IMG/VR virus record: IMGVR_UViG_3300025769_000662
Location: 1-27,447 of that record
Origin: a virus
Reading direction: 5' to 3' (one strand)
DNA length: 27,447 nt
Part shown: positions 1 to 25,044 of the stretch, one piece after another
Position numbering within the stretch: the first letter of the stretch is position 1
Layout of the letters: the number at the start of each line of letters is the position of its first letter
Program-made: the position numbers and the translations under genes
Notes under the pieces: generated by a model
The model's database searches: none
The model's input: only the letters and a program-made list of their open reading frames with translations
Told to the model about the DNA's origin: nothing

Positions 1-204
1 CCTGAGATGGCACGTATGGTACTACCTCAGAGCATGTTTACTGAGTGGTACTGGACAGGCAGCCTTATGGCCTTCATCAGGGTGTGTTCTCTTAGGATTA
101 AGGAAGATGCACAAGAGGAAACCAAAGACATTGCATCTATGATAGATGTAGAGTGTTCACATCTTTTCCCTGTATCTTGGGAACAACTAATGAAACTCTC
201 GTAG
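1..204 (+). CDS. thyX: Flavin-dependent thymidylate synthase ThyX, C-terminal part (5' end outside window)
   Basis: The reading frame is open from base 1 and ends at TAG 202-204. The visible 67 or so residues contain PEMARMVLPQS, then TEWYWTGSL and LRIKEDAQEETKDIA, and end near FPVSW. This is the characteristic C-terminal part of ThyX, where the Arg of 'AR.VLP' and the 'TE.YWTGSL' helix contribute to the dUMP/FAD site. ThyX makes dTMP from dUMP with methylenetetrahydrofolate and FAD, and phages use it to supply thymidylate during replication. The signature motif RHRxxSxNxxS would lie upstream of the window. The last ten bases overlap the tRNA that follows. Recognition is by motif, without an alignment. 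Confidence 0.88.
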   Translation, partial: PEMARMVLPQSMFTEWYWTGSLMAFIRVCSLRIKEDAQEETKDIASMIDVECSHLFPVSWEQLMKLS

Positions 205-308: not shown

Positions 309-358
309 TCGTGTACTCAAATAAAGAATGCTTTAAGGTTCTTTATAATCTTGCTCAT

Positions 359-364
359 AAGGAG
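359..364 (+). promoter_or_regulatory. Shine-Dalgarno of the Hsp20 gene
   Basis: AAGGAG sits 7 nt before ATG 372. It favours that ATG over the in-frame TTG at 351. Confidence 0.8.
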
Positions 365-371
365 AAAAAAT

Positions 372-812
372 ATGATTACAACTACACCTAATCTACCTTC
401 CCATGTATGGAATGATTTCTTTGAATACTCTGTAGGATATGATCAACTTCTTCGTAAAATAATGACTAGTCATAAATACAGAAGTCAGAACAATTCATAC
501 CCTCCTTTTAATGTTTCAAAAAAAGACAGTACAAGTTATGAAATTTCTATAGCTCTTGCTGGATTTACTTCAAAAGACATTGAGGTAACTCAAAAAGATA
601 CTATCTTAACAATTAGAGGCGAGGCAAAAGAAGAAGATACTACAGAATACTTGGTAAAAAATATAGCTTCTCGCGTATTTACAAAAACTTTTGCATTAAA
701 TGAACATGCTAGAGTAGATAACGTATCATTAAATAATGGTATCTTATCTATCATTATTAAGATAGAAGTTCCAGAAGAACAACAACCTAAAACATTTAAG
801 ATTGAGGAGTAA
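372..812 (+). CDS. Small heat-shock protein (Hsp20/IbpA-like chaperone)
   Basis: This 146-aa protein has an alpha-crystallin domain at about residues 38-130. It begins with YPPFNVSKKD and continues with YEISIALAGFTSKDIEV, LTIRGEAKEED, YLVKNIASRVFTKTFAL and NGILSIIIK. The tail PEEQQPKTFKIEE resembles the IbpA-type end with its I-x-I/V anchor. Such proteins are ATP-independent holdases in the cytoplasm that keep unfolding proteins soluble, and they are known from marine phages. ATG 372 is chosen because AAGGAG lies 7 nt upstream. It is the first gene after the promoter, with 2 nt to the next gene, so it should be the most strongly transcribed member of the operon. Confidence 0.88.
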   Translation: MITTTPNLPSHVWNDFFEYSVGYDQLLRKIMTSHKYRSQNNSYPPFNVSKKDSTSYEISIALAGFTSKDIEVTQKDTILTIRGEAKEEDTTEYLVKNIASRVFTKTFALNEHARVDNVSLNNGILSIIIKIEVPEEQQPKTFKIEE

Positions 813-814
813 GT

Positions 815-1594
815 ATGACACAGACATATAATATTTATGTAGGCTATGATCCTAAAGAAGAGATAGCATATGAAATTCTTAAATGGAATTTAGAACGTAT
901 TGCCAAGAACCCTGTAAATGTTTTTCCTTTGCGTAAAGATATTCTTGAAAAGATTGGAATGTATAGTCGAGAGTACACAGATATCAAAGGACAAAAGATT
1001 GATAAGATTGATGGCAAACCTTTCTCTTCTGATTTTTCTTTTAGTCGCTTTTTAGTTCCTGCCTTGAACATGTATCAAGGATGGGCCTTGTATATGGACT
1101 GTGACATGTATCCAAGGAGTGATATCTGTGAATTGTTTGAAGAATACAACGATCCTTTTCATCCTATTTATTGTGTTAAGCATGAGTACACACCTGAAAA
1201 TAATACGAAGATGGATAATCAGAAACAGGAACAGTATTATAGAAAGAATTGGTCAAGCCTCATGCTGTTCAATTGCTCGCATCCTCAAAATCAAATGCTT
1301 ACTCCATATGTAGTCAACACTCAGACAGGTCAGTACCTTCATAAGTTTGGATGGTTGCCTGATAAGCCAGCAGATATTGGTTCTATTAAGGAAGAATGGA
1401 ACTGGCTTGATGGTCACTCACCTGAAGAGATCGAGGCTAAGAATGTTCACTTCACTACTGGCGGTCCTTGGTTTTATAACTGGAAATGTAAACGAGAAAT
1501 GGATGGTAAGTATGCAGCAGAGTGGAACAACGATGCAATTTACCTCCAAACAATTGGTGTACTTAAAGATGAAGTACATAAATATTTTTTATAA
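815..1594 (+). CDS. GT-A fold glycosyltransferase
   Basis: This 259-aa protein starts with YNIYVGYDPKEEIAYEI, the usual opening strand of nucleotide-sugar glycosyltransferases related to family 8. It has a DxD motif at D95-C-D97 (YMDCDMYPRSDICELF), which in this fold binds the metal and the sugar nucleotide. A C-terminal stretch HFTTGGPWFYNW resembles the acceptor-side loop of related enzymes. The donor and acceptor sugars cannot be told. A strong GAGGAG ribosome site precedes ATG 815. Its place next to a second glycosyltransferase and two methyltransferase modules suggests a role in building or decorating a glycan on the host surface or the virion. Confidence 0.78.
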   Translation: MTQTYNIYVGYDPKEEIAYEILKWNLERIAKNPVNVFPLRKDILEKIGMYSREYTDIKGQKIDKIDGKPFSSDFSFSRFLVPALNMYQGWALYMDCDMYPRSDICELFEEYNDPFHPIYCVKHEYTPENNTKMDNQKQEQYYRKNWSSLMLFNCSHPQNQMLTPYVVNTQTGQYLHKFGWLPDKPADIGSIKEEWNWLDGHSPEEIEAKNVHFTTGGPWFYNWKCKREMDGKYAAEWNNDAIYLQTIGVLKDEVHKYFL

Positions 1595-1609: not shown

Positions 1610-4030
1610 ATGACTAATGTTAATTTTGTAACTTCTTTTAATGAAAATTTATTTGTAGATACTTCATATAAATTTTTAGAATCTGTCTTGTCTAAGTGGG
1701 AACCCAAGATTAAACTTAATTGTTATACCCATAACGTAGACTTAGAAAACTATGTAGTACCTGATGCAAAGAATATTACTTTCAATTCTTTACATGACGT
1801 AGAAACATATGATTCTTTTCATGAGACGTTTAAAAAACACAACGGTACTGAAGGTAAGACAGTAGACTACAACTGGAAGCTAGATGCTTTACGTTGGTCA
1901 CATAAAGTATTTGCCCTTACAGAATCTGCATTCAATCTAGTAGCTGCCTCTGATAATCCTGGGTGGTTGATCTGGATTGATGCAGATTCTTATACCTTGA
2001 ATAGACTTACAAAAAAAGATATCTTGGCTATTCTACCTGAAGGTGCTGATGTTGTATGCCTTGAACGTACTGATCAAGAGTATCATGAAGGTGCATTCAT
2101 GGCATTCAATCTTAATAGTAAGTCAACTCAAGACCTTCTAGGAGACTTACGAGGTGCTTATATTTCTGGAGAAGTATTTAACTACAGAGAATGGCATGAT
2201 TCTTTTATCTTTACTAGACTACTAACCATCTATAAAGCACATGGTTTAAAAGTATCTAACCTTGGTATTAATGCTAACACAGAAAAGCTCAGTGCCTTTG
2301 AACAGTCTCCTCTTGCCTCGATGTTCCTACATTTTAAAGGAGCAGATGCTACTTCTCTGAAGAACTTGAGAGATGAGAATGGAGAGAGGTTTGTATCCTT
2401 GTCAGAAGATACAACGCATGACATTCTTCCCAGTAGATATACCCTGTTGTCAGACATTATGAAGCATTATAAATCTGAAGGAACTATCATAGAGACAGGC
2501 ACCTGGAATGGTGGTCGTGCCATTCAAATGGCTATGACTATGTTTGAGAATACTGACAAGGTACACTACATTGGTTACGATTTGTTTGAAGAAGCTACTG
2601 CTCAAACAGATGAAGAAGAGTTTAATGTAAAAGCTCATAACAAAATGAGTGCTGTTGATAAAAGACTTACTGATTTTAGCAACATCATGTTGAAAAGAAA
2701 ATCAAAGTACTTTACCTTTGAACTTATCAAGGGTAACACCAGAGATACACTAAAGAAAAGCGATGCTGACTTTGTTCTTCTAGGAGGTGGTAATAGTTTT
2801 GAGACAGTAAACAATGAGTATGAAAAACTTAAACACAATAAAGTAATTGTTCTTGATAATTTTTATATGACAGATAGCTCTGAGAGAAACGTAGTTGAGA
2901 AGTATCAGGGTGTAAACAAAGTCTTTGAATCTATTAAAGAGAATAAAAAAGAAAATAAGGAGGAAGACGAAGAAGGTTGGACATCCTTTGACGATACAGA
3001 TACAGGAGTAAGAAAACTTATTCTTCCTTCATCTGATGATGTAAGAGGTGGAGGCATTGCACATATCTGTTTGATCTTGAATGATCCTGATCTGCCTGAA
3101 GTACCTAAGAAATTTAAACAAGTTCCTATTGTTGTTAATCCCAGAGACTGTGTATCAAAAGATTACATCAGAGATAACATTAAATCTAATCTTAAAATGA
3201 TTGATCATAATAGATTTATGCATCGTATTAGTCCTCATAACCAAACAGCTTTAATTGTATCAGGTGGTCCTTACCTAAACATCAAAGAACTTAAAGATAC
3301 TATTAAAGAAAATCCTGGATGTAAGGTTGTGTGTGTCAAGCACAGTTATAATAAACTTCTGGAGAATAATATTAAACCTTGGGCATGTGTCTTACTTGAT
3401 CCTCGTCCCATTACAGGCATCAGTACTCATGGCGTTACACGTAAAGATTTATTCAAGAAAGTTGATCCTTCTACTAAATTCTTTGTGGCATCCATGACTG
3501 ATCCCTCAGTGACAGAACATCTGATTAAAAAGAAAGCTGACATATATGGATGGCACGCCTTTACTGAATCTTTAAGAGAAGAAGATGAGCGTGGCGTACA
3601 GATTGTAAACAATCAAGTGCATCTGGTTGATGAGCTAGGTATTCCTCAAGGATCAACTTTAATTACAGGTGGTACATGTGCAGCAATGAGAGCTATTGGT
3701 ATCATGAACACAATGGGTTTCAGAGAGATGCATCTGTTTGGTTTTGACTGCTCTATGGAAGAGCCTACTGAAAAACAAATGGAAGAAACTACAGGGGCTG
3801 AAGATGAAGAGCCTAAAGCTAAGTATATGAAAGTCACTGTGAATGACAAAGACTTCTGGACTACAGGAGAACTCTTGGCAATGGCACAAGACTGTGAGCG
3901 TACATTCAGAGATGCTAACTCAGCAATTAATTTTACTTATCATGGTGAAGAAACAATGGTAGCAGAGCTATGGAAAATTATTGAATCAGAAAGACCTCTG
4001 CCTAATTTCAAGGAGGTGTTTGATGACTAA
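1610..4030 (+). CDS. Three-domain fusion: glycosyltransferase, SAM methyltransferase, MptE-like (DUF115) domain
   Basis: This 806-aa protein has three recognisable parts. Residues about 1-260 look like a GT-A glycosyltransferase with DxD at D124-A-D126 (WLIWIDADSYTLNRL). Residues about 265-470 look like a class I SAM methyltransferase of the TylF/macrocin type: ETGTWNGG near 293-300, then YIGYDLFEE, LIKGNTRDTL, and GGGNSFETVNNEYE near 390 in place of the usual DGxHxY region. Residues about 540-800 match the 6-hydroxymethylpterin pyrophosphokinase MptE-like/DUF115 family, with LIVSGGPYLN near 548, NIKPWACVLLDPRP, and GGTCAAMRAIGIMNTMGF then HLFGFDCS from about 687. DUF115 domains also occur in motility-associated Maf proteins linked to flagellin glycosylation. 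An acidic Lys/Glu linker near residues 445-460 separates domains two and three. The combination suggests one polypeptide for several steps of glycan modification. The substrate is unknown. Confidence 0.75.
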   Translation: MTNVNFVTSFNENLFVDTSYKFLESVLSKWEPKIKLNCYTHNVDLENYVVPDAKNITFNSLHDVETYDSFHETFKKHNGTEGKTVDYNWKLDALRWSHKVFALTESAFNLVAASDNPGWLIWIDADSYTLNRLTKKDILAILPEGADVVCLERTDQEYHEGAFMAFNLNSKSTQDLLGDLRGAYISGEVFNYREWHDSFIFTRLLTIYKAHGLKVSNLGINANTEKLSAFEQSPLASMFLHFKGADATSLKNLRDENGERFVSLSEDTTHDILPSRYTLLSDIMKHYKSEGTIIETGTWNGGRAIQMAMTMFENTDKVHYIGYDLFEEATAQTDEEEFNVKAHNKMSAVDKRLTDFSNIMLKRKSKYFTFELIKGNTRDTLKKSDADFVLLGGGNSFETVNNEYEKLKHNKVIVLDNFYMTDSSERNVVEKYQGVNKVFESIKENKKENKEEDEEGWTSFDDTDTGVRKLILPSSDDVRGGGIAHICLILNDPDLPEVPKKFKQVPIVVNPRDCVSKDYIRDNIKSNLKMIDHNRFMHRISPHNQTALIVSGGPYLNIKELKDTIKENPGCKVVCVKHSYNKLLENNIKPWACVLLDPRPITGISTHGVTRKDLFKKVDPSTKFFVASMTDPSVTEHLIKKKADIYGWHAFTESLREEDERGVQIVNNQVHLVDELGIPQGSTLITGGTCAAMRAIGIMNTMGFREMHLFGFDCSMEEPTEKQMEETTGAEDEEPKAKYMKVTVNDKDFWTTGELLAMAQDCERTFRDANSAINFTYHGEETMVAELWKIIESERPLPNFKEVFDD
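4010..4017 (+). promoter_or_regulatory. Shine-Dalgarno deciding the methyltransferase start
   Basis: AAGGAGGT lies inside the end of the upstream fusion gene, 5 nt before ATG 4023. It supports that start over the in-frame ATG at 3981. Confidence 0.8.
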
Positions 4031-5072: not shown

Positions 5073-5519
5073 ATGAAAGAAGGAAAAGTATGGGGAACAA
5101 CAGAGAACATTTATTCTAATAGTTCTTTTGAGTTCCATCGTATCGAGTTTAAAAAAGATAGTGAATGTAGTAAACATAAACACCAGTATAAATGGAATGG
5201 ATTCTATGTATCTCAAGGAACATTGTTGATAAGAGTATGGAAAAATTCTTATGATCTAGTGGATCAAACAATTCTTAAAGCAGGAGACTTCACCAAAGTT
5301 AAACCTGGAGAGTACCATCAATTCAAAGGTCTTGACGATGGAGTAGCCTTTGAGTTATACTGGGCTGAATTTAATCATGATGATATTGAAAGGGAATCAA
5401 TTGGAAAAGGACCAAGAGGATACATTGAAGAAGACAACTCCTCTACATACGAAGGATTGGTACATAAAGTGGGCAGCTTCACTGATCCTATTAGTTGGAA
5501 TGCTCCTGACAAGCAATAA
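5073..5519 (+). CDS. Cupin-fold protein
   Basis: This 148-aa protein has a single cupin barrel. Motif 1 is CSKHKHQYKWNGFYVSQG (metal ligands H35, H37 and possibly a downstream residue), and motif 2 is GDFTKVKPGEYHQF with H82. The fold and length match small phosphomannose-isomerase-like or WxcM-like cupins, which isomerise or epimerise sugars or sugar nucleotides. The exact activity cannot be told. Its place in the glycan cassette makes a sugar-modifying role likely. Its last 95 bases also encode the start of the next gene in another frame. Confidence 0.72.
   Translation: MKEGKVWGTTENIYSNSSFEFHRIEFKKDSECSKHKHQYKWNGFYVSQGTLLIRVWKNSYDLVDQTILKAGDFTKVKPGEYHQFKGLDDGVAFELYWAEFNHDDIERESIGKGPRGYIEEDNSSTYEGLVHKVGSFTDPISWNAPDKQ
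5414..5420 (+). promoter_or_regulatory. Shine-Dalgarno for a TTG start inside the cupin gene
   Basis: AAGAGGA ends 4 nt before TTG 5425. It is the best ribosome site for the nested membrane protein. The upstream in-frame ATG codons at 5377 and 5380 and the TTG at 5350 have none. Confidence 0.5.
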
Positions 5520-5670: not shown

Positions 5671-6067
5671 TGCTAAACAAGAAAAGTTTGCACAAGCCTA
5701 TGTGTTACATAGGAATGCAACAGAAGCTGCCAAGGCAGCAGGATATTCTGATAGGTCTGCCAATAATCAAGGTTATCGACTCCTTCAAATGGATGAGGTT
5801 ACTGAGAGAATTGCAGACCTAGAGAATGAACTAGTCACTGACATTGATGTAGTAGATGAGCTTGAATCTCAATACACATTTGCTGCTACTAATGGACATA
5901 CTAACAGTGCTATCAAGGCTCTTGAGTTATTGTCTAGAGTCAGAGGTGCCAAGTCAGATAGAACTACGCATCTATCTACAGAGACAATAGAGAATGAGAT
6001 CGTAGGTTACATGGAAGCTTTGGGTAAAGATAAGATAGATGATCTAATCAAGAAGTGTAAGTTTTAA
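5660..6067 (+). CDS. Terminase small subunit (Terminase_2-like)
   Basis: This 135-aa protein opens with LNAKQEKFAQAYVLHRNATEAAKAAGYSD..SANNQGYRLLQMDEVTERI. That is the helix-turn-helix DNA-binding domain typical of small terminase subunits (KQxxFxxxYxxxxNATxAAxxAGYS). The C-terminal part (ALELLSRVRGAKSD, then an acidic helix) fits oligomerisation and large-subunit contact. It recognises the packaging site and helps load DNA into the ATPase terminase. No large subunit follows: the gene is the last of the plus operon and meets the minus-strand operon head-on, with a 20-bp overlap. Its start lies in the end of the small membrane protein gene and has no clear ribosome site, so coupled translation is likely. 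Confidence 0.82.
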   Translation: MPLNAKQEKFAQAYVLHRNATEAAKAAGYSDRSANNQGYRLLQMDEVTERIADLENELVTDIDVVDELESQYTFAATNGHTNSAIKALELLSRVRGAKSDRTTHLSTETIENEIVGYMEALGKDKIDDLIKKCKF

Positions 6068-7514
6068 ACTTCTTATCATACTCGTCTTGCATACTACCTG
6101 TATCTATATCTTTAGCATACTTCCAATCTTCAGGCGCTCTTACTGCCTTGCCTCGTAGAGTTCTAAAGTTGTCTGCTGTGTAAGAGAAGTTATTCTTAGT
6201 CTCAAACGTATATGTTATTTGAGATGCAAGATCACCTTTAGCAGCTTCAACACGATAGATATCTATAGGTTCTCCATCTGCTCCCATGACTGTATCACCC
6301 TCTTGTAACCACATTACTAGAGCAGCAGTTCCATCACCCTTAACAATCCATTCTCTACCTGTAACCATTGTATCATTTAGATGCCAAATATTTCTACTTC
6401 TATTTACACTTAGAGAGATGATAGGTTTAGCCTCTAGTTCTGTAGTCCACTTCCTTGTTTTCTTATCTTCAGGGAATGACATAACAACATCACCTATTTT
6501 TAAATCTTCAATGTTTTGATAAGTGCAGTCACCCATCAATACTTTTGTACCTGCAACCCAACAAGCATCAGCATCCCCATCACCAGGATCATCAGCATCA
6601 CCCTCTCCTGGACCTCCAGAACCTTCTGGTCCTCCCATTCCTCCTTCATCTCCAAATCCACCAAACCCAGGACTACCTGGAATGCCTCCTGAAAGATCAA
6701 CAGGACTTTTACCAAAACCATCGAAGTCATCAAAACCTGGACCTGTAATACCAGGCATACCCTCTATTCCTATACCTAACCCACTTGTAGCAGCATCTAC
6801 ACCAGTACCAGGAGCAGACCCTGCTCCAGGACCTTCACCAGAGGGTCCTTCTTCCGCAAAGAAGGCATCATATACAAATTTTACAAGCATAATAGGAAGA
6901 GCAAGTATAGGAAATGATGTTGCTAAAAATCCTAAACCTATATTTGTAATCGCTTTAGGGGCATTAAATGGCTTGCCCTCAAGCTTGTCTCTGAGTGCGT
7001 CAACTAGACCACCAACAATAGGAACAGCTGCGCGTGGTGCAGCACGCGAGACAGCGGTTTTAGCAAGATCAAAGGCTACATCTTTTCCTACTTCTTTTGC
7101 AAAATTTACTGGGTTCTCAAAAACTTCGTCAACTTTTGCTCCTATTCTATCTCCAAAGTTGCTAAATTTTCCTGATATATCTTCTCCTATATTTTCTAAA
7201 CCTTCTGTTATTGTATCAAAACTAACTTCAGGCGCACCTTGAAATGCATCATCTGCTTCATCACTCACAGGAATTAAAGAAGAAATACCTTGAGGCAGAC
7301 CTGGAGCTAACTGTTGAGGATTTGCTATCTGTCCTATATTAGTTGTAGTTTGAGCAATAGGTCCACCAGAAATACGTCTACCAAAAATATCAAAGTTTAA
7401 TTTGTTATCAGCTATCTGACCTATATCTAACTCTTGATTAGGCACACCACCTTCCTGCCTACGAATAGGAATAAAACCAGATAATCCAGATTGATTAATT
7501 GGCTGAGTAAACAT
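6048..7514 (-). CDS. Virion-associated protein with C-terminal Hint (intein/hedgehog-like) domain
   Basis: This 488-aa protein has several zones. Near the N terminus it carries IPIRRQEGGVP (from residue 15). A helical region (100-180) leads to a hydrophobic stretch (190-219, NIGLGFLATSFPILALPIML) that could cross a membrane. A Gly/Pro/Asp-rich linker covers about 222-316. A Hint domain begins at C318 (CWVAGTKVLMGD, then YQNIEDLKIGDVVMSF) and ends with FSYTADNFRTLRG. The nucleophile Cys and the G-T-x-V strand are intact. The block B T-x-x-H reads T-G-R-E, and the final His-Asn is absent. It is the last gene of the late operon, starting at the endolysin stop (TAATG). An internal virion or ejection role is inferred from the hydrophobic stretch, the shared motif and the gene position. 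Confidence 0.68.
   Translation of the reverse strand: MFTQPINQSGLSGFIPIRRQEGGVPNQELDIGQIADNKLNFDIFGRRISGGPIAQTTTNIGQIANPQQLAPGLPQGISSLIPVSDEADDAFQGAPEVSFDTITEGLENIGEDISGKFSNFGDRIGAKVDEVFENPVNFAKEVGKDVAFDLAKTAVSRAAPRAAVPIVGGLVDALRDKLEGKPFNAPKAITNIGLGFLATSFPILALPIMLVKFVYDAFFAEEGPSGEGPGAGSAPGTGVDAATSGLGIGIEGMPGITGPGFDDFDGFGKSPVDLSGGIPGSPGFGGFGDEGGMGGPEGSGGPGEGDADDPGDGDADACWVAGTKVLMGDCTYQNIEDLKIGDVVMSFPEDKKTRKWTTELEAKPIISLSVNRSRNIWHLNDTMVTGREWIVKGDGTAALVMWLQEGDTVMGADGEPIDIYRVEAAKGDLASQITYTFETKNNFSYTADNFRTLRGKAVRAPEDWKYAKDIDTGSMQDEYDKKFKTYTS
6050..6074. terminator. Possible bidirectional hairpin between converging operons
   Basis: AAGAAGT (6050-6056) and ACTTCTT (6068-6074) form a 7-bp stem around an 11-nt loop, exactly where the two operons meet. 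No long T-run follows on either side, and the stem is AT-rich, so termination would be weak. It lies within both coding ends. Confidence 0.3.
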
Positions 7515-7894
7515 TACTTATAGCTCCACACCCAAGGACGAGGGTGCGTATCAGATGACATATCATCTAGGTGTATGAACCTACGCTCATGTGCGCCTCT
7601 CTGAGAGACTCCTATGCCTGTCATACCATGCTTTATAGCCAAGTATATAATATCATAGGCTACCTCTCCCATTGCTGCCACATCTACAGCTTTACCATAC
7701 ACATGAGGAGAGTCTTTAACACCTCCTATGGCACTGTTATGTGCAGGATGTCGATAGCCTGATGTTATGATCATGGGTCTACCTAAATCTTCTCGTATCT
7801 TAATTAACTTTTCTAGGAAACCATCATCTATCTGACATTCATCAGTGCCTTTACATTTAAGTTCATCTATAGAAAAGTATTCATTCTCTATCAT
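7514..7894 (-). CDS. Endolysin, peptidase M15 family (L-Ala-D-Glu or D-Ala-D-Ala type)
   Basis: This 126-aa protein (start ATG 7894) shows EYFSIDELKCKGTDEC, then MIITSGYRHPAHNSAIGG, SPHVYGKAVDV and RFIHLD. These give the expected zinc ligands H64, D71 and H108, with R48 of the SGYR motif nearby. It matches the M15_3-type phage endolysins, which cut the peptide cross-links of peptidoglycan. There is no signal peptide, so release to the cell wall should need the holin at 4657-5061. The start at 7894 is preferred because CAGGAG lies 6 nt upstream. An upstream in-frame ATG at 7924 would add ten residues and has no ribosome site. The gene overlaps the preceding spanin-like gene by 14 nt and the following gene by 1 nt. 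Confidence 0.87.
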   Translation of the reverse strand: MIENEYFSIDELKCKGTDECQIDDGFLEKLIKIREDLGRPMIITSGYRHPAHNSAIGGVKDSPHVYGKAVDVAAMGEVAYDIIYLAIKHGMTGIGVSQRGAHERRFIHLDDMSSDTHPRPWVWSYK

Positions 7895-8237
7895 CTTTAA
7901 CTCCTGTATCTGGATGGCTTCCATTATGCATGTGAGATAATTTATCTGTATCTTTTTGAAGCTGTTCTATTTCTGTCTTCATTCTTTCCAAGCTACGATG
8001 TAACTGTTCTCTATTTTCAGGGGATAGTATAGAAGTCAATACTCCTATCTTATTTTCTGATACTTGTGTACTAATATTGTTCCTCTCTAGGTTATCAAAG
8101 AGTTCACTAATATTCTTTTGCATTGCCTTAGAATCTTCTTCAAGCTCAATACACTTCTGTCTTGTAACAACAAAGCTTGTTATAACACTGATCAACATAC
8201 CTCCCAGTGTTATCAGTAGTCTAGCATCTAGCTCCAT
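7881..8237 (-). CDS. Small membrane-anchored coiled-coil protein, possible i-spanin
   Basis: This 118-aa protein has one N-terminal membrane helix (about 6-25, RLLITLGGMLISVITSFVV). A long heptad-like charged region follows (about 30-100; ELEEDSKAMQKNISELFDNLER and RSLERMKTEIEQLQKDTDKL), and then a short polar tail. Topology and place directly before the endolysin fit an inner-membrane spanin (Rz-like) that helps disrupt the outer membrane. No o-spanin lipoprotein gene is seen nested inside it or after it, so a different role is possible. Its ATG directly follows the TAA of the 1367-aa gene. Confidence 0.5.
   Translation of the reverse strand: MELDARLLITLGGMLISVITSFVVTRQKCIELEEDSKAMQKNISELFDNLERNNISTQVSENKIGVLTSILSPENREQLHRSLERMKTEIEQLQKDTDKLSHMHNGSHPDTGVKDDRE
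7901..7906 (-). promoter_or_regulatory. Shine-Dalgarno of the endolysin gene
   Basis: On the minus strand CAGGAG, 6 nt before ATG 7894, decides the endolysin start. Confidence 0.65.
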
Positions 8238-11200
8238 TTATCTACCGCCAGTATTACTTATATCAATAGTGAGTAAAGGAGTATTTACTTGGTTAGCATA
8301 CCTAGCTTCTATCTCTTTTATTAAAGCTTCTCCTTGACCTTTAGGTAGCTCACGTTTAATTTTTTTCAATTTATTTTTAATTGTAAAGGGAGTAAATATA
8401 CCTCTTTCATTAGTACCTCTATCTGCAATACCTTTAAGTAAGTTATCATCAATTTTTTCAGTACCTTCTCTTGATAATAACTTATATAAATCCTTATCTG
8501 ACATTGAATGTTCAGTAACATTACCCTTTTTATCTTTTTTTCTGTAGGATAAACTTTTCATATCATCGTATAAACTAGTAAGTTTTGCCTGTTCATCTCT
8601 AGATTTAACCACAAGATCATCTAATTTTTCAAAAAGTTTATTTTTTAATTCTACAGTTATTTGTGGATATTGTTGTAATTTAGATATCTCTCTATTAAAT
8701 ACATTCTCATAAGTTTTAATTTTAGAATTTATTTTATAAGCATTGTAACGTAAATTTTTTCCTAGATCAACAGTGACTTGTCTAGTACCATAAAGTCTAG
8801 CTAGTTTATCCTCTAATTTTTTAGGATATCCTGTTGGTCCTACATCTGTTTTTCCCACTAAGTCTACAATCTCTCTAATATCTTTAATAGTTCTTGGCTC
8901 TAAAGGTGCTGCTGCTTTACCTAGTCTAGTTACTAATTCTCCTACACCTCCTTCACCAATAGGTTGTCCATATTCATCCTCACCTGTTACAGCTTCTGTA
9001 ATAGATTGGACCATAAGGCTTGGTCCTACTACAGGAGCAAGTAATGCTAAATTATCCATTAAATATTTATCAAAAGGAATATGATTTACATCTTCCTCTC
9101 CAGGACTTGATGCATATGCTGCTGTAATTTTATATATTTTTCTAATAACATCATAAGGATCAGAAAAACTTTGATTAATATATGTGTAACCAATATCTCC
9201 TCTTTCATCCATCATTAAAGGAGTTTGGTATTCTTTTAATGTAGTACCGTTTTCCCAACGAGGCCCAAGAGAAGATAATATTTTATCTGATTTTGGATCA
9301 ATACCCATATCAGCATTTTGATAAGTAAAATATTCTTCTGCTCCATAAGCAACAGCACCCATCGAAGCTACACGCCTTGTTCCTATGCGTGTCAACATAG
9401 CTCCCTGTTTTATTAATTCTTTATCTCCAGAAGCAATTCCTCTAGCTGTTAGTGCTGAACCCTTTTTTAAATCCTTCATGCCTACCTTGGCTATGTTTTT
9501 TGCTGTTCTAATTGACTCAACAAAGAAAGCAGGGAAGGCTCCAAGAGGCGCTCCTTTAAGAGCTTTAATAGCTCTAGGTAAATTAGAATAACTAGGTAAT
9601 GTATTCTTTACTACTTCAGCAGCATACTGTTCAATCTGTTCTGTAGGCATATCAGGAAATGCTTTTGCATATTGATCTAATTCTTTGTAATAAGATAATA
9701 ATTTAAAAGCAGCATCTTCTCCACGATAGACATTACTTAAAGGATCAATTACTTTTTCTCTTACCTTGCTTAAAACTGGTCCTTTAAAAGTAGAATCAAA
9801 TCCTTTTGTAAGCATTTCTGCTGTAACACTGTTATCAATTAATCCTAACCTATACATTTTACTTAACTCATCTACATTTATATCTTGGTCTTTAAAGGTA
9901 ACTCCTTTTGTAGTACGACCATATAAGTTTTGAAGTTTAGGTACAGCTTGAACCACATCTTTAACATTTTTTGCTTTAGTAAATAAAGCATCTAAGTTAC
10001 CATTAGCTGCCATCATAATCATATTACCTTTAACATTGATTAGATGCGTAGCTTCTGACAATACAGTTTGTGATAATGAAGCAGCAGAACCAAGACCTGC
10101 TAATGATTTAGTAATTACATTATCAGGATAAGCAACCTCTAGTCCTTTATCAAACATTTCTTTAAAATCTTGTGTCACAAAGACATCAGCTAATGGATTT
10201 TTACCTAGAGCTTGTTCCACATATGGAGAAGCTGATCCTTCCAGTGGTTTAGTAAATTTTCCTGATGCTCCTTTTGCTACATTATATATATCAGAAGAAT
10301 ATCCAGAGTCATCTGCTATTTTTTTAATGTCGTTTATAAAATTTACTTCAGATATTAAGTCTGTCTGTTTTTTAAGAGTGGCTGAAACCCTTTGTAGAGG
10401 ATCGTCTACTTGTCTGAGAACTCGACGCAATTCAGAAGGTATTAACTCTCTTGTATTTAAAACCTTATCTGTTCCTGGTCGAGATGATTTAAGTGATTTT
10501 TGTCCTGATAAAAAATCAAATAATTCTACATCTCCTTTAGTGATAGATTCTACAAATTGATTCATTAATCCATCTACATCAGCACCTTCTTTAGGGTTTA
10601 ATTCTAACTGACGTTTGAAAAAATTTCTAGCTCCATCTAAAGCTTCAACTAATTCTAAGTCATCTACATCTTTACCTTGCATAGCCTTTTTAAGCTTCTT
10701 CATATAAGCAGGATTAACAAATGCTTCATATTCAGTATTCATATAGATACCATTCTTAGCATCAATAGTAGCGTTAATTTTTTTATTAAAACCTAGCTTA
10801 GATAATTCATTACTATAAGAATCAATAGACCTTCTCATTTCTAAAACAGTATCTCTTAACTCTTCAGGTAAAGAATCTAAAGCTTCTTTTTGATTAGCTC
10901 TTGCAGCATCATTTAATTGAGAATAATAACCTTCTAGTATTTCTCTGTCCTTATCTGTTCTTTTAGAAATAGGTTTTTCAAAAGCAGTCTTAATTTTTTT
11001 AGACATACCTTCACCAATAGAAAGTTCTTTACCTAATGCATTGTTTAGAGTTGTAATTTGTTCAGGATTTAAATCTTTATATTTAATACCAAAAGCTTGT
11101 TCAATTGCTCTCTGTAATTTTTTAGATTTATTTCTAATAACAACAGCATCTGCTCCTGCTTGATCTGACTTTTTATTAAAAGCTCTAAATGTCTTCTCAT

Positions 11201-23115: not shown

Positions 23116-25044
23116 TTAACTATTTCCATATGCGTTAGTTAAAATTGCATGAATGTTTTCTCCAGTATTATCACTAGAGACAGATACTACAATATAATCG
23201 AGTCTTCCCACTGCACCATTACTTACATCCAGAGTTGGTACACTTGCTCCTATAAATTTCCAACAAGTGTTATAAGCCAATGTACCACTGCCTCCTGACT
23301 GAACTAAGAAAATGCTTCCTGTTTGTCCTTTGGTAGCATTAGTAGGTCTAGCCAGGGTATGTGCTGCTGTAACTGTGGTAAGAAAGTTTTGAGCATTAGA
23401 GAAGTTTAAGGATACAGAAGTTATACCATTAATAGCTGTTGCTGATATAGCTGCTGCTCCTGACTTAGCCAAGAACAATTGACCACCCAGACTTACATTA
23501 CCTGTAATCTGTGCTGCCCCACCAATCGTAGCTGTACCTCCTACATGTAAATTACCTGATACTGAAGCATCATCATCAAATGTTGCAGCACCTGTTGCCA
23601 AGAACGTACCTCCTATCGAAGTATTACCAGCTACATCTAACGTGCCTCCAACAGTTGTATTACCACTTACACGTACTGTTCCCAAGAATCCTGCTGCACC
23701 ACTAACAGTGGCAGTGCTTAAAAGATTAACTGCACCTCCAATAGATACAGCCCCTCCTATTGAAGCTGCACCAACTACTGTTGCTGTTCCACCAATAACA
23801 ATATTACCTGATACAGATACATCATCATCAAAGGTAGCAGCACCTGTAGACATAAACGTACCACCAACTGAAGTGTTACCTGCAACATCTAGCGTACCAC
23901 CAACTGTTGTGTTACCACTGACTCGCACAGTTCCCAAGAATCCTGCTGCACCTGATACTGTGGCTGTACTGAGAAGATTAACTGCACCACCAATTGATAC
24001 TGCACCTCCTATAGATGCTGCACCTACTATTGTTGTACTACCTCCTACTACTAAATTACCACTTACAGATACATTAGTTTTAAATGTAGCATTACCTGAT
24101 ACTGTGGCTGTACCTCCTACAAGAAGATTAGTAACTGAAACATTTCCTTCAACTGGGGCTGTAATTCCTGTTAAGTTAGAGCCATCTCCAAAGAAAGCAC
24201 TTGCACAAACTTTAGCATTAGTGGCTTGAAGATTACCACCTGCTATTGTAACTGTACCTCCAATATTAACATTACCACTTACAGATACATCATCTTTAAA
24301 ATGTCCTGCTCCTGCTACAGTAACAGTTGATCCTAAGACTGTAGCCCCTTCAAGCGAGGTAGCACCACTAACTCTAACAGACCCTAAGAATCCTGCTGCA
24401 CCACTAACTGTAGCAGTGCTTAAAAGATTTACCGCACCTCCTATAGATACTGCACCTCCTATTGAAGCTGCTCCTGCAACAGTTGCTGTACCTCCAATAT
24501 TTACATTACCGCTTACAGATACATCATCATCAAACGTAGCTGCTCCTGTTGTTATAAGAGTTCCTCCTACAGAGGTATTACCTGCAATATTAAGAGTACC
24601 ACCCAGTGTAGTATTACCACTTACTCTAACTGTACCAAGAAATCCTGCTGCTCCACTAACAGTAGCAGTGCTTAAAAGATTAACTGCACCACCTACAGAA
24701 AGAGTTCCTCCAATTGTAGCAGTGTTTGCAACTATAAGAGAACTTACAGAAGTATCTCCTGTTGCTATAATACTGGTAAGATGTCTACCACTTCCAAAGT
24801 AAGAACTTGCACATACATCTCCATTAACTTTTAAAGAGCCTCCTACAGAAGCACTAGAAGATACTGCAAAGGCACCTCCTATTCTAATAGAATCAGTGGC
24901 TACAAGTAAAGCAGTGTTAGTACCATCTCCTCCCTCAACTTGTGTAAGAGAAGAAGATACAGCACCATTACCACTTACAGCAAGTTTAAGCAGACCTTTA
25001 TAAGTATCAGCTATTCTTTTACCTGTTAAATCAAAATCACTCAT
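23116..25044 (-). CDS. Repetitive beta-rich tail fibre protein (642 aa)
   Basis: The 642-aa protein begins with MSDFDLTGKRIADTYKGLLKLA, a likely attachment region. From about residue 50 to 530 it consists of short repeating strands such as TATVSGAAGFLGTVRVSGNTTVGG, TLDVAGNTSVGG and TFDDDVSVSGN. These look like a beta-helix or stacked-strand shaft. A unit of 84 residues can be traced at four places, and a short module VCASxFFGxGxxLT occurs twice (C78 and C280). The final 90 residues resemble the end of the 307-aa fibre at 18787-19710. It likely forms a trimeric shaft with a receptor-binding tip. Its start overlaps the stop of the Zn-ribbon gene (ATGA). Confidence 0.72.
   Translation of the reverse strand: MSDFDLTGKRIADTYKGLLKLAVSGNGAVSSSLTQVEGGDGTNTALLVATDSIRIGGAFAVSSSASVGGSLKVNGDVCASSYFGSGRHLTSIIATGDTSVSSLIVANTATIGGTLSVGGAVNLLSTATVSGAAGFLGTVRVSGNTTLGGTLNIAGNTSVGGTLITTGAATFDDDVSVSGNVNIGGTATVAGAASIGGAVSIGGAVNLLSTATVSGAAGFLGSVRVSGATSLEGATVLGSTVTVAGAGHFKDDVSVSGNVNIGGTVTIAGGNLQATNAKVCASAFFGDGSNLTGITAPVEGNVSVTNLLVGGTATVSGNATFKTNVSVSGNLVVGGSTTIVGAASIGGAVSIGGAVNLLSTATVSGAAGFLGTVRVSGNTTVGGTLDVAGNTSVGGTFMSTGAATFDDDVSVSGNIVIGGTATVVGAASIGGAVSIGGAVNLLSTATVSGAAGFLGTVRVSGNTTVGGTLDVAGNTSIGGTFLATGAATFDDDASVSGNLHVGGTATIGGAAQITGNVSLGGQLFLAKSGAAAISATAINGITSVSLNFSNAQNFLTTVTAAHTLARPTNATKGQTGSIFLVQSGGSGTLAYNTCWKFIGASVPTLDVSNGAVGRLDYIVVSVSSDNTGENIHAILTNAYGNS
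23560..24790 (-). repeat. Four copies of an 84-aa repeat unit within the fibre gene
   Basis: The marker sequence for GFLG(T/S)VRVSG lies near 23686, 23938, 24388 and 24640, giving spacings of 252, 450 and 252 nt (84, 150 and 84 codons). Protein copies are nearly identical in the stretch SIGGAVNLLSTATVSGAAGF, while the DNA copies differ at many third positions. The 66 extra codons between copies two and three include the second VCASxFFG module. It is coding sequence, not a CRISPR array. Confidence 0.85.

Follow-up and report, generated by a model that had tools for sequence, protein, structure and literature searches.

What does a virus do with a glycosyltransferase, a methyltransferase and an MptE-like domain in one polypeptide, and are all three parts of the chain active? 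We addressed this question for a viral stretch of 27,447 nucleotides (positions 1 to 27,447 of IMG/VR record IMGVR_UViG_3300025769_000662, hereafter the window), for which the original prediction had proposed a three-enzyme chain that acts with adjacent genes on a glycan. The features discussed below are collected in Table 1.

Table 1. Features of the window, with their positions, strand and the evidence for each
Feature	Position	Strand	Evidence
Apparent thyX (flavin-dependent thymidylate synthase) gene; window starts inside it	1-204	+	By eye; ORF 7-204 resembles the C-terminus of a protein encoded by a relative (cluster 28)
Small heat-shock protein Hsp20	351-812	+	PF00011 54 bits, phrog_432
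Upstream GT8-like glycosyltransferase, conserved DxD (MDCDM)	815..1594	+	phrog_28018, E 3.9e-50
806-aa three-domain fusion protein	1610..4030	+	ORF calls, Pfam, AlphaFold2 model, co-linear relatives
Domain 1, aa 1-261, GT-A glycosyltransferase fold, DxD intact	1610..2392	+	2p72 match
Domain 2, aa 262-494, class-I O-methyltransferase fold, SAM motif ETGTWNGG kept	2393..3091	+	Fold, residue states, tree
Domain 3, aa 505-800, PF01973 MptE/Maf-like	3122..4009	+	PF01973 profile, 8sd5 fold
Stand-alone Methyltransf_23-type methyltransferase, 210 aa	4023..4655	+	PF13489 29.8 bits vs cut-off 27
Cupin (WbuC-like, weak), accessory	5073..5519	+	Cupin_2 27.5 bits vs cut-off 27.2
488-aa protein; C-terminal part from CWVAGTKVLMGDCTYQNIEDLKIGDVV looks intein/Hint-type	6048-7514	-	By eye; one weak PHROG match with function unassigned
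642-aa protein of internal repeats (GGTATVAGAASIGGAVSIGGAVNLLSTATVSG-like), probably tail-fibre-type	23116-25044	-	By eye

Architecture and distribution of the fusion protein

The fusion is encoded by a single unbroken frame with an ATG at 1610 and a TAA at 4030, and every motif on which the prediction was built is found in it, i.e. D124-A125-D126, ETGTWNGG (residues 295-302), LIVSGGPYLN (548-557) and GFDCS (711-715). An AlphaFold2 model built on 63 related sequences (mean pLDDT 87.8, pTM 0.55) resolves three domains, and the fold matches along the chain bear out the predicted succession of glycosyltransferase, methyltransferase and MptE-like parts. Residues 2-261 match a GT-A enzyme of PBCV-1 (2p72; VIA-align Z 14.8, 2.9 Å over 181 residues), and Foldseek matches this domain to GT6/GT8 enzymes. 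Domain 2 matches O-methyltransferases with Z 14.4-15.9, CalS11 and MycF being found at Z 14.3-14.5, while residues 509-779 match MptE (8sd5; Z 14.9, 3.4 Å over 198 residues). For the full-chain model both Foldseek and VIA-align put the glycosylation protein Maf (5mu5) on top, with the last two domains matching at Z 18.7.

Sequence searches contribute less to these assignments. Profile searches with the fusion returned weak matches only, and phmmer of the whole protein against the PDB found nothing; domains 1 and 3 were thus assigned to families by fold and Pfam. The domain-wise profile searches that had been proposed as a check succeed for one part: PF01973 scores 54.6 bits (cut-off 34.6) over residues 522-717, but the TylF profile stays below its cut-off of 23 with both the fusion (19.6 bits) and the window domain alone (21.8 bits), and no Pfam model matches the N-terminal part. 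PHROGs and NCBIfam hold no model covering the chain, and a literature search on DUF115, phage MptE or MptE structure returned nothing relevant. The best match in BFVD comes from an uncultured Caudovirales phage, whose protein of 714 aa aligns over nearly the whole chain.

Scans of IMG/VR yielded hundreds of contigs with full-length, co-linear relatives (496 confirmed candidate stretches), so that the fusion is neither a chance event nor an assembly artefact. The family belongs to mostly marine viruses of bacteria. Larger records carrying the fusion are about 55-60 kb long, and a virion protein of the window shows distant similarity to HTVC023P-type pelagiphages and other podoviruses. Among 50,697 phage records none carries the fusion and none has a detectable C-terminal half. 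The only match in genome_contigs, a Sneathiella MAG contig, was set aside as probably viral, its length of 33,035 b being that of one IMG/VR contig. The Hsp20 gene of the window lies directly 5' of the cassette in many relatives. L047, L057 and L060 have ORFs of about 250 aa located 3' of the terminase small subunit gene; that of L060 resembles dihydroorotate dehydrogenase, at scores well below the curated cut-offs.

The window copy of domain 1 retains its DxD motif (D124-A125-D126). This motif is lost in 63 relatives, by two changes on the tree, and reads DPx or NTN there (L068, L070, L086, L101 and relatives; L052, L053, L055, L073, L081, L089, L093, L097-L099). All of these lie inside the clade of the window that is defined below, and their GT-A domain is under purifying selection as strong as elsewhere. 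Directly 5' of the fusion, a second glycosyltransferase is present in all 226 loci with room for it, 127 of them in the Gly state and 99 in the Asp state of position 392. It has homologs in cultured phages and matches Pfam Glyco_transf_8 weakly, under the cut-off.

State of the methyltransferase site in the middle domain

The SAM-motif residues E295, G297, G301, R303 and D324 of domain 2 are invariant in all aligned sequences. To describe the remainder of the site we compared the window with 238 relatives, which gives 239 unique full-length sequences. Of these, 108 have Asp at position 392 and the other 131 have Gly, with one change on the tree. The Asp group reads DGGHS...DD except for seven members, whereas the Gly group has GGGNS/GSGNS...DN/DH, with Asn (rarely Asp) at 395 and Asn or His at 417; the altered GGGNS/GSGNS motif is itself conserved across the group. 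The window carries G392, N395 and D416-N417, and has thus lost the metal Asp 392 and the presumed base 395 and is changed at 417.

In the HMMER alignment, DGGH and DD of the members that retain Asp pair with IDAAKG and DN of the methyltransferase TrmR, Asp 392 falling on the Asp of IDAAKG. The corresponding positions are established metal ligands in COMT-like enzymes, and MycE and MycF have a metal Asp, a base His three residues on and an Asp pair. COMT-like enzymes accept Asn where the fusion has residue 417, so that an impaired site is argued more strongly by the losses at 392 (Asp) and 395 (presumed base). MycE works with Mg2+ and a His base (PMC9539859). With the sugar O-methyltransferases of the TylF/MycF/CalS11 and Methyltransf_24 type the window domain has the fold and the SAM motif in common; Asp-retaining relatives also keep the metal and base positions of this type, whereas the window clade has lost both and the window domain falls below the Pfam cut-offs, for Methyltransf_24 with 20.1 against 26.3 bits. 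This profile recognises 31 of 31 intact domains scanned and, more weakly, 21 of 32 site-lost ones.

Stand-alone homologs of domain 2 in fusion-free phages (L355, L379) keep DGGHS and DD, and when the trees of the three domains are rooted with outgroups, the Gly group is in each case monophyletic and nested within a grade of Asp members (support 0.63, 0.92 and 0.99). The intact Asp state is thus ancestral and that of the window derived. Median dN/dS lies at 0.075-0.14 for each domain, whatever the group; the site-lost methyltransferase domain, at 0.09-0.11, is therefore not decaying. Sequencing error and random decay of the site were considered and are ruled out by this dN/dS of about 0.1 and by the recurrence of the same motif classes in 131 sequences. 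Judged from its residues, the middle domain of the window is predicted to be catalytically retired. The notion of three enzymes in one chain accordingly breaks down for the window copy, the metal Asp 392 and presumed base 395 being lost and 417 changed throughout its clade. Loss of active-site residues across homologues had been named in advance as counting against the prediction; it is found for the methyltransferase part, and many relatives are also without the GT-A DxD.

Within the Asp clade, L150, L151, L153 and L243-L246 have NN for DD at 416-417, and in three of them residue 395 is Asn as well. These seven members have no separate methyltransferase gene; they possibly represent a second loss of the site.

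A separate methyltransferase gene beside the fusion

In the window, a stand-alone methyltransferase gene follows whose start overlaps the stop of the fusion (ATGACTAA), with a Shine-Dalgarno sequence AAGGAGG upstream; an overlap of 4-11 bases is seen in 96 of 121 loci. The encoded protein has conserved DYGxGKG and DVxEH motifs. Its distribution follows the state of position 392: it lies directly 3' of the fusion in all 121 Gly loci with room and in none of the 101 Asp loci with room. Whole records give the same picture (six of six Gly against none of 14 Asp), and the Methyltransf_23 profile agrees.

We consider it probable, if by no means certain, that the locus is a phage glycan cassette in which methylation has moved from the internal domain to a separate, translationally coupled protein. 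The upstream glycosyltransferase and the GT-A domain of the fusion would transfer sugars, and the PF01973 domain would be a Maf/sialyltransferase-like transferase working on the same glycan. In the ancestral form, the chain's own metal-dependent O-methyltransferase domain would methylate this glycan. In the clade of the window, where the metal Asp and the presumed base have disappeared from this domain, its work was probably taken over by the separate downstream methyltransferase. The inactive domain, still under purifying selection, may have been retained for structure or binding, comparable to the degenerate Rossmann domain that accompanies PF01973 in Maf. The loss of catalysis, the functional replacement and the glycan target, on host envelope or virion, are what we infer, the first of them from a site loss read from sequence alignment. 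Counting against this reading are the intact SAM-binding residues, the NN members of the Asp clade without a separate gene, a domain placement unlike that of Maf, and L363, which has a TylF-like ORF next to its PF01973-Methyltransf_23 fusion.

The invariance of the SAM-motif residues and the strong constraint on domain 2 would also fit a chain with all three domains active, in which the GGGNS domain is a metal-independent methyltransferase and the separate enzyme adds a second methyl group. The conserved GGGNS/GSGNS motif agrees with this, and there is a precedent in A061L, which acts beside A064R (PMC9614988). We regard such an arrangement as unlikely: no member of the clade has kept either the metal Asp or the presumed base, and gain of the gene coincides with loss of the site, as would not be expected from a second methylation step.

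As both changes fall on one branch, the association between site loss and separate gene counts as a single event. Position 392 changes once and all site-lost loci descend from that branch, leaving no independent replicate, so that two unrelated changes on the same branch might have been inherited together by coincidence. This explanation appears distinctly improbable to us. The same upstream glycosyltransferase family adjoins Methyltransf_23 genes in unrelated phages (Caulobacter phages, DLP_6 and a spring-water podovirus), PF01973 is fused to this same type of methyltransferase in L350, L351, L357 and L363 (the last with the TylF-like ORF in addition), and the gene order with overlapping starts is kept. 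The association gains weight from these neighbours and fusions.

The glycan cassette idea itself, put forward in the original prediction, holds up well: glycosyltransferase and methyltransferase genes adjoin the fusion, and the search for split or alternative fusions that it proposed was fruitful, with other phages carrying the components unfused or fused differently. Caulobacter phage C1 encodes a PF01973 protein (gp162, below cut-off), a glycosyltransferase (gp165), a methyltransferase (gp166) and a GT9 protein (gp167). In another Caulobacter phage, CcrColossus, gp126 (PF01973 below cut-off) is annotated as alpha-2,3-sialyltransferase-like and adjoins a tail gene, and a cluster of Stenotrophomonas phage DLP_6 holds a methyltransferase, a glycosyltransferase and a GT29 sialyltransferase-like protein. 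L355 has PF01973, GT-A, Methyltransf_24 and the upstream glycosyltransferase as four separate ORFs. Like the window, these four thus unite homologous glycosyltransferase, methyltransferase and PF01973 or GT29-like proteins in one cluster; they differ in having separate genes without the three-domain fusion, and their functions there are putative. With such components encoded separately in cultured phages and in L355, a glycan cassette is the best reading of the locus. The cupin, which had been counted among its parts, is present in the window but found in only part of the relatives (cupin cluster 17, in a subset of loci), and its cupin_WbuC match is below cut-off.

In S-SCSM2R the glycosyltransferase homolog neighbours genes annotated KdsB and KdsA. 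L086, a member of the Gly clade, has a KdsA gene at 7593-8501 (TIGR01362, 381.7 bits against an equivalog cut-off of 314), about 2 kb 3' of the fusion and flanked by the genes for the terminase small subunit and endolysin. As a lead, such Kds genes near the homolog or the fusion hint at a CMP-Kdo-type donor.

The PF01973 domain and known systems

Domain 3 is the most invariant part of the chain (53 of 326 positions, against 18 of 270 and 20 of 210 in the other two domains). PF01973 is named for MptE, and the clear fold match to 8sd5, a 6-hydroxymethyl-dihydropterin pyrophosphokinase that depends on ATP, could be taken to mean that domain 3 is a pyrophosphokinase producing a diphosphate cofactor, pterin or otherwise, and that the cassette serves metabolism rather than glycan modification. 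The likeness lies at the level of profile and fold. MptE is a stand-alone archaeal enzyme, whereas the domain of the window sits in a glycosyltransferase/methyltransferase cassette; its fusion partners and the genes next to it are of the glycosyltransferase and methyltransferase types, the Maf match spans two domains of the chain, and the comparable clusters of cultured phages carry a GT29 or alpha-2,3-sialyltransferase-like protein. We therefore think a pyrophosphokinase very unlikely. A sialyltransferase-like role is likely for the PF01973 domain, whose chemistry would be that of a glycosyltransferase.

In Maf, a CstII-like PF01973 domain is preceded by a degenerate Rossmann domain whose methyltransferase motifs are weak (PMC11339370), and the fusion shows the same order of a Rossmann/methyltransferase-like domain and PF01973 as Maf of Magnetospirillum (5mu5). 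A separate model of its last two domains (pLDDT 89.2, pTM 0.71) again has 5mu5 as top match (Z 19.2, 342 residues). The rmsd of 14 Å over both domains shows that their relative placement differs from Maf, and a rigid Maf-like unit is not supported. The fusion further differs by its additional N-terminal GT-A domain, and in the AlphaFold2 model the chain ends shortly after the PF01973 region, without the C-terminal helical bundle that follows it in Maf. Flagellin, whose Ser/Thr residues receive a CMP-nonulosonate or Kdo from Maf, was not seen among the ORFs of the window.

The original prediction knew of no three-enzyme chain with a defined product. A064R of PBCV-1 is one, a viral chain of three transferases with a solved product and a separate partner methyltransferase, A061L (PMC9614988). 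The window protein resembles it as one viral chain of three transferase domains, with an N-terminal GT-A domain of the same fold (2p72) and a small methyltransferase as partner. The order of domains differs, being Rha-transferase, Rha-transferase and 2-O-methyltransferase (GT-GT-MTase) in the chlorovirus protein and GT-MTase-PF01973 in the window. A064R comes from a virus of eukaryotic algae and the likeness is one of fold and architecture, with no sequence relation claimed. Its methyltransferase domain is active, and the presence of three active transferase domains sets it apart from the window chain, in which the methyltransferase site is lost. The window protein works like parts of A064R and Maf and is a proven member of neither.

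The relatives collected here form a dense natural series of one phage glycan module in its intact, site-lost, split and differently fused forms. They also offer a case, open to testing, in which a catalytic domain is retired yet preserved and its task seems to have passed to a separate enzyme. Tentatively, the inactive domain might serve as a docking or allosteric pseudoenzyme by which the coupled methyltransferase is recruited or regulated, and the family might display the passage from an enzyme chain to a Maf-like scaffold plus transferase with its sites switched off stepwise. The series suggests how the degenerate Rossmann domain of the Maf flagellin glycosyltransferases may have evolved, and it draws attention to a glycan-modifying system, so far uncharacterised, of viruses whose bacterial hosts are mostly marine.
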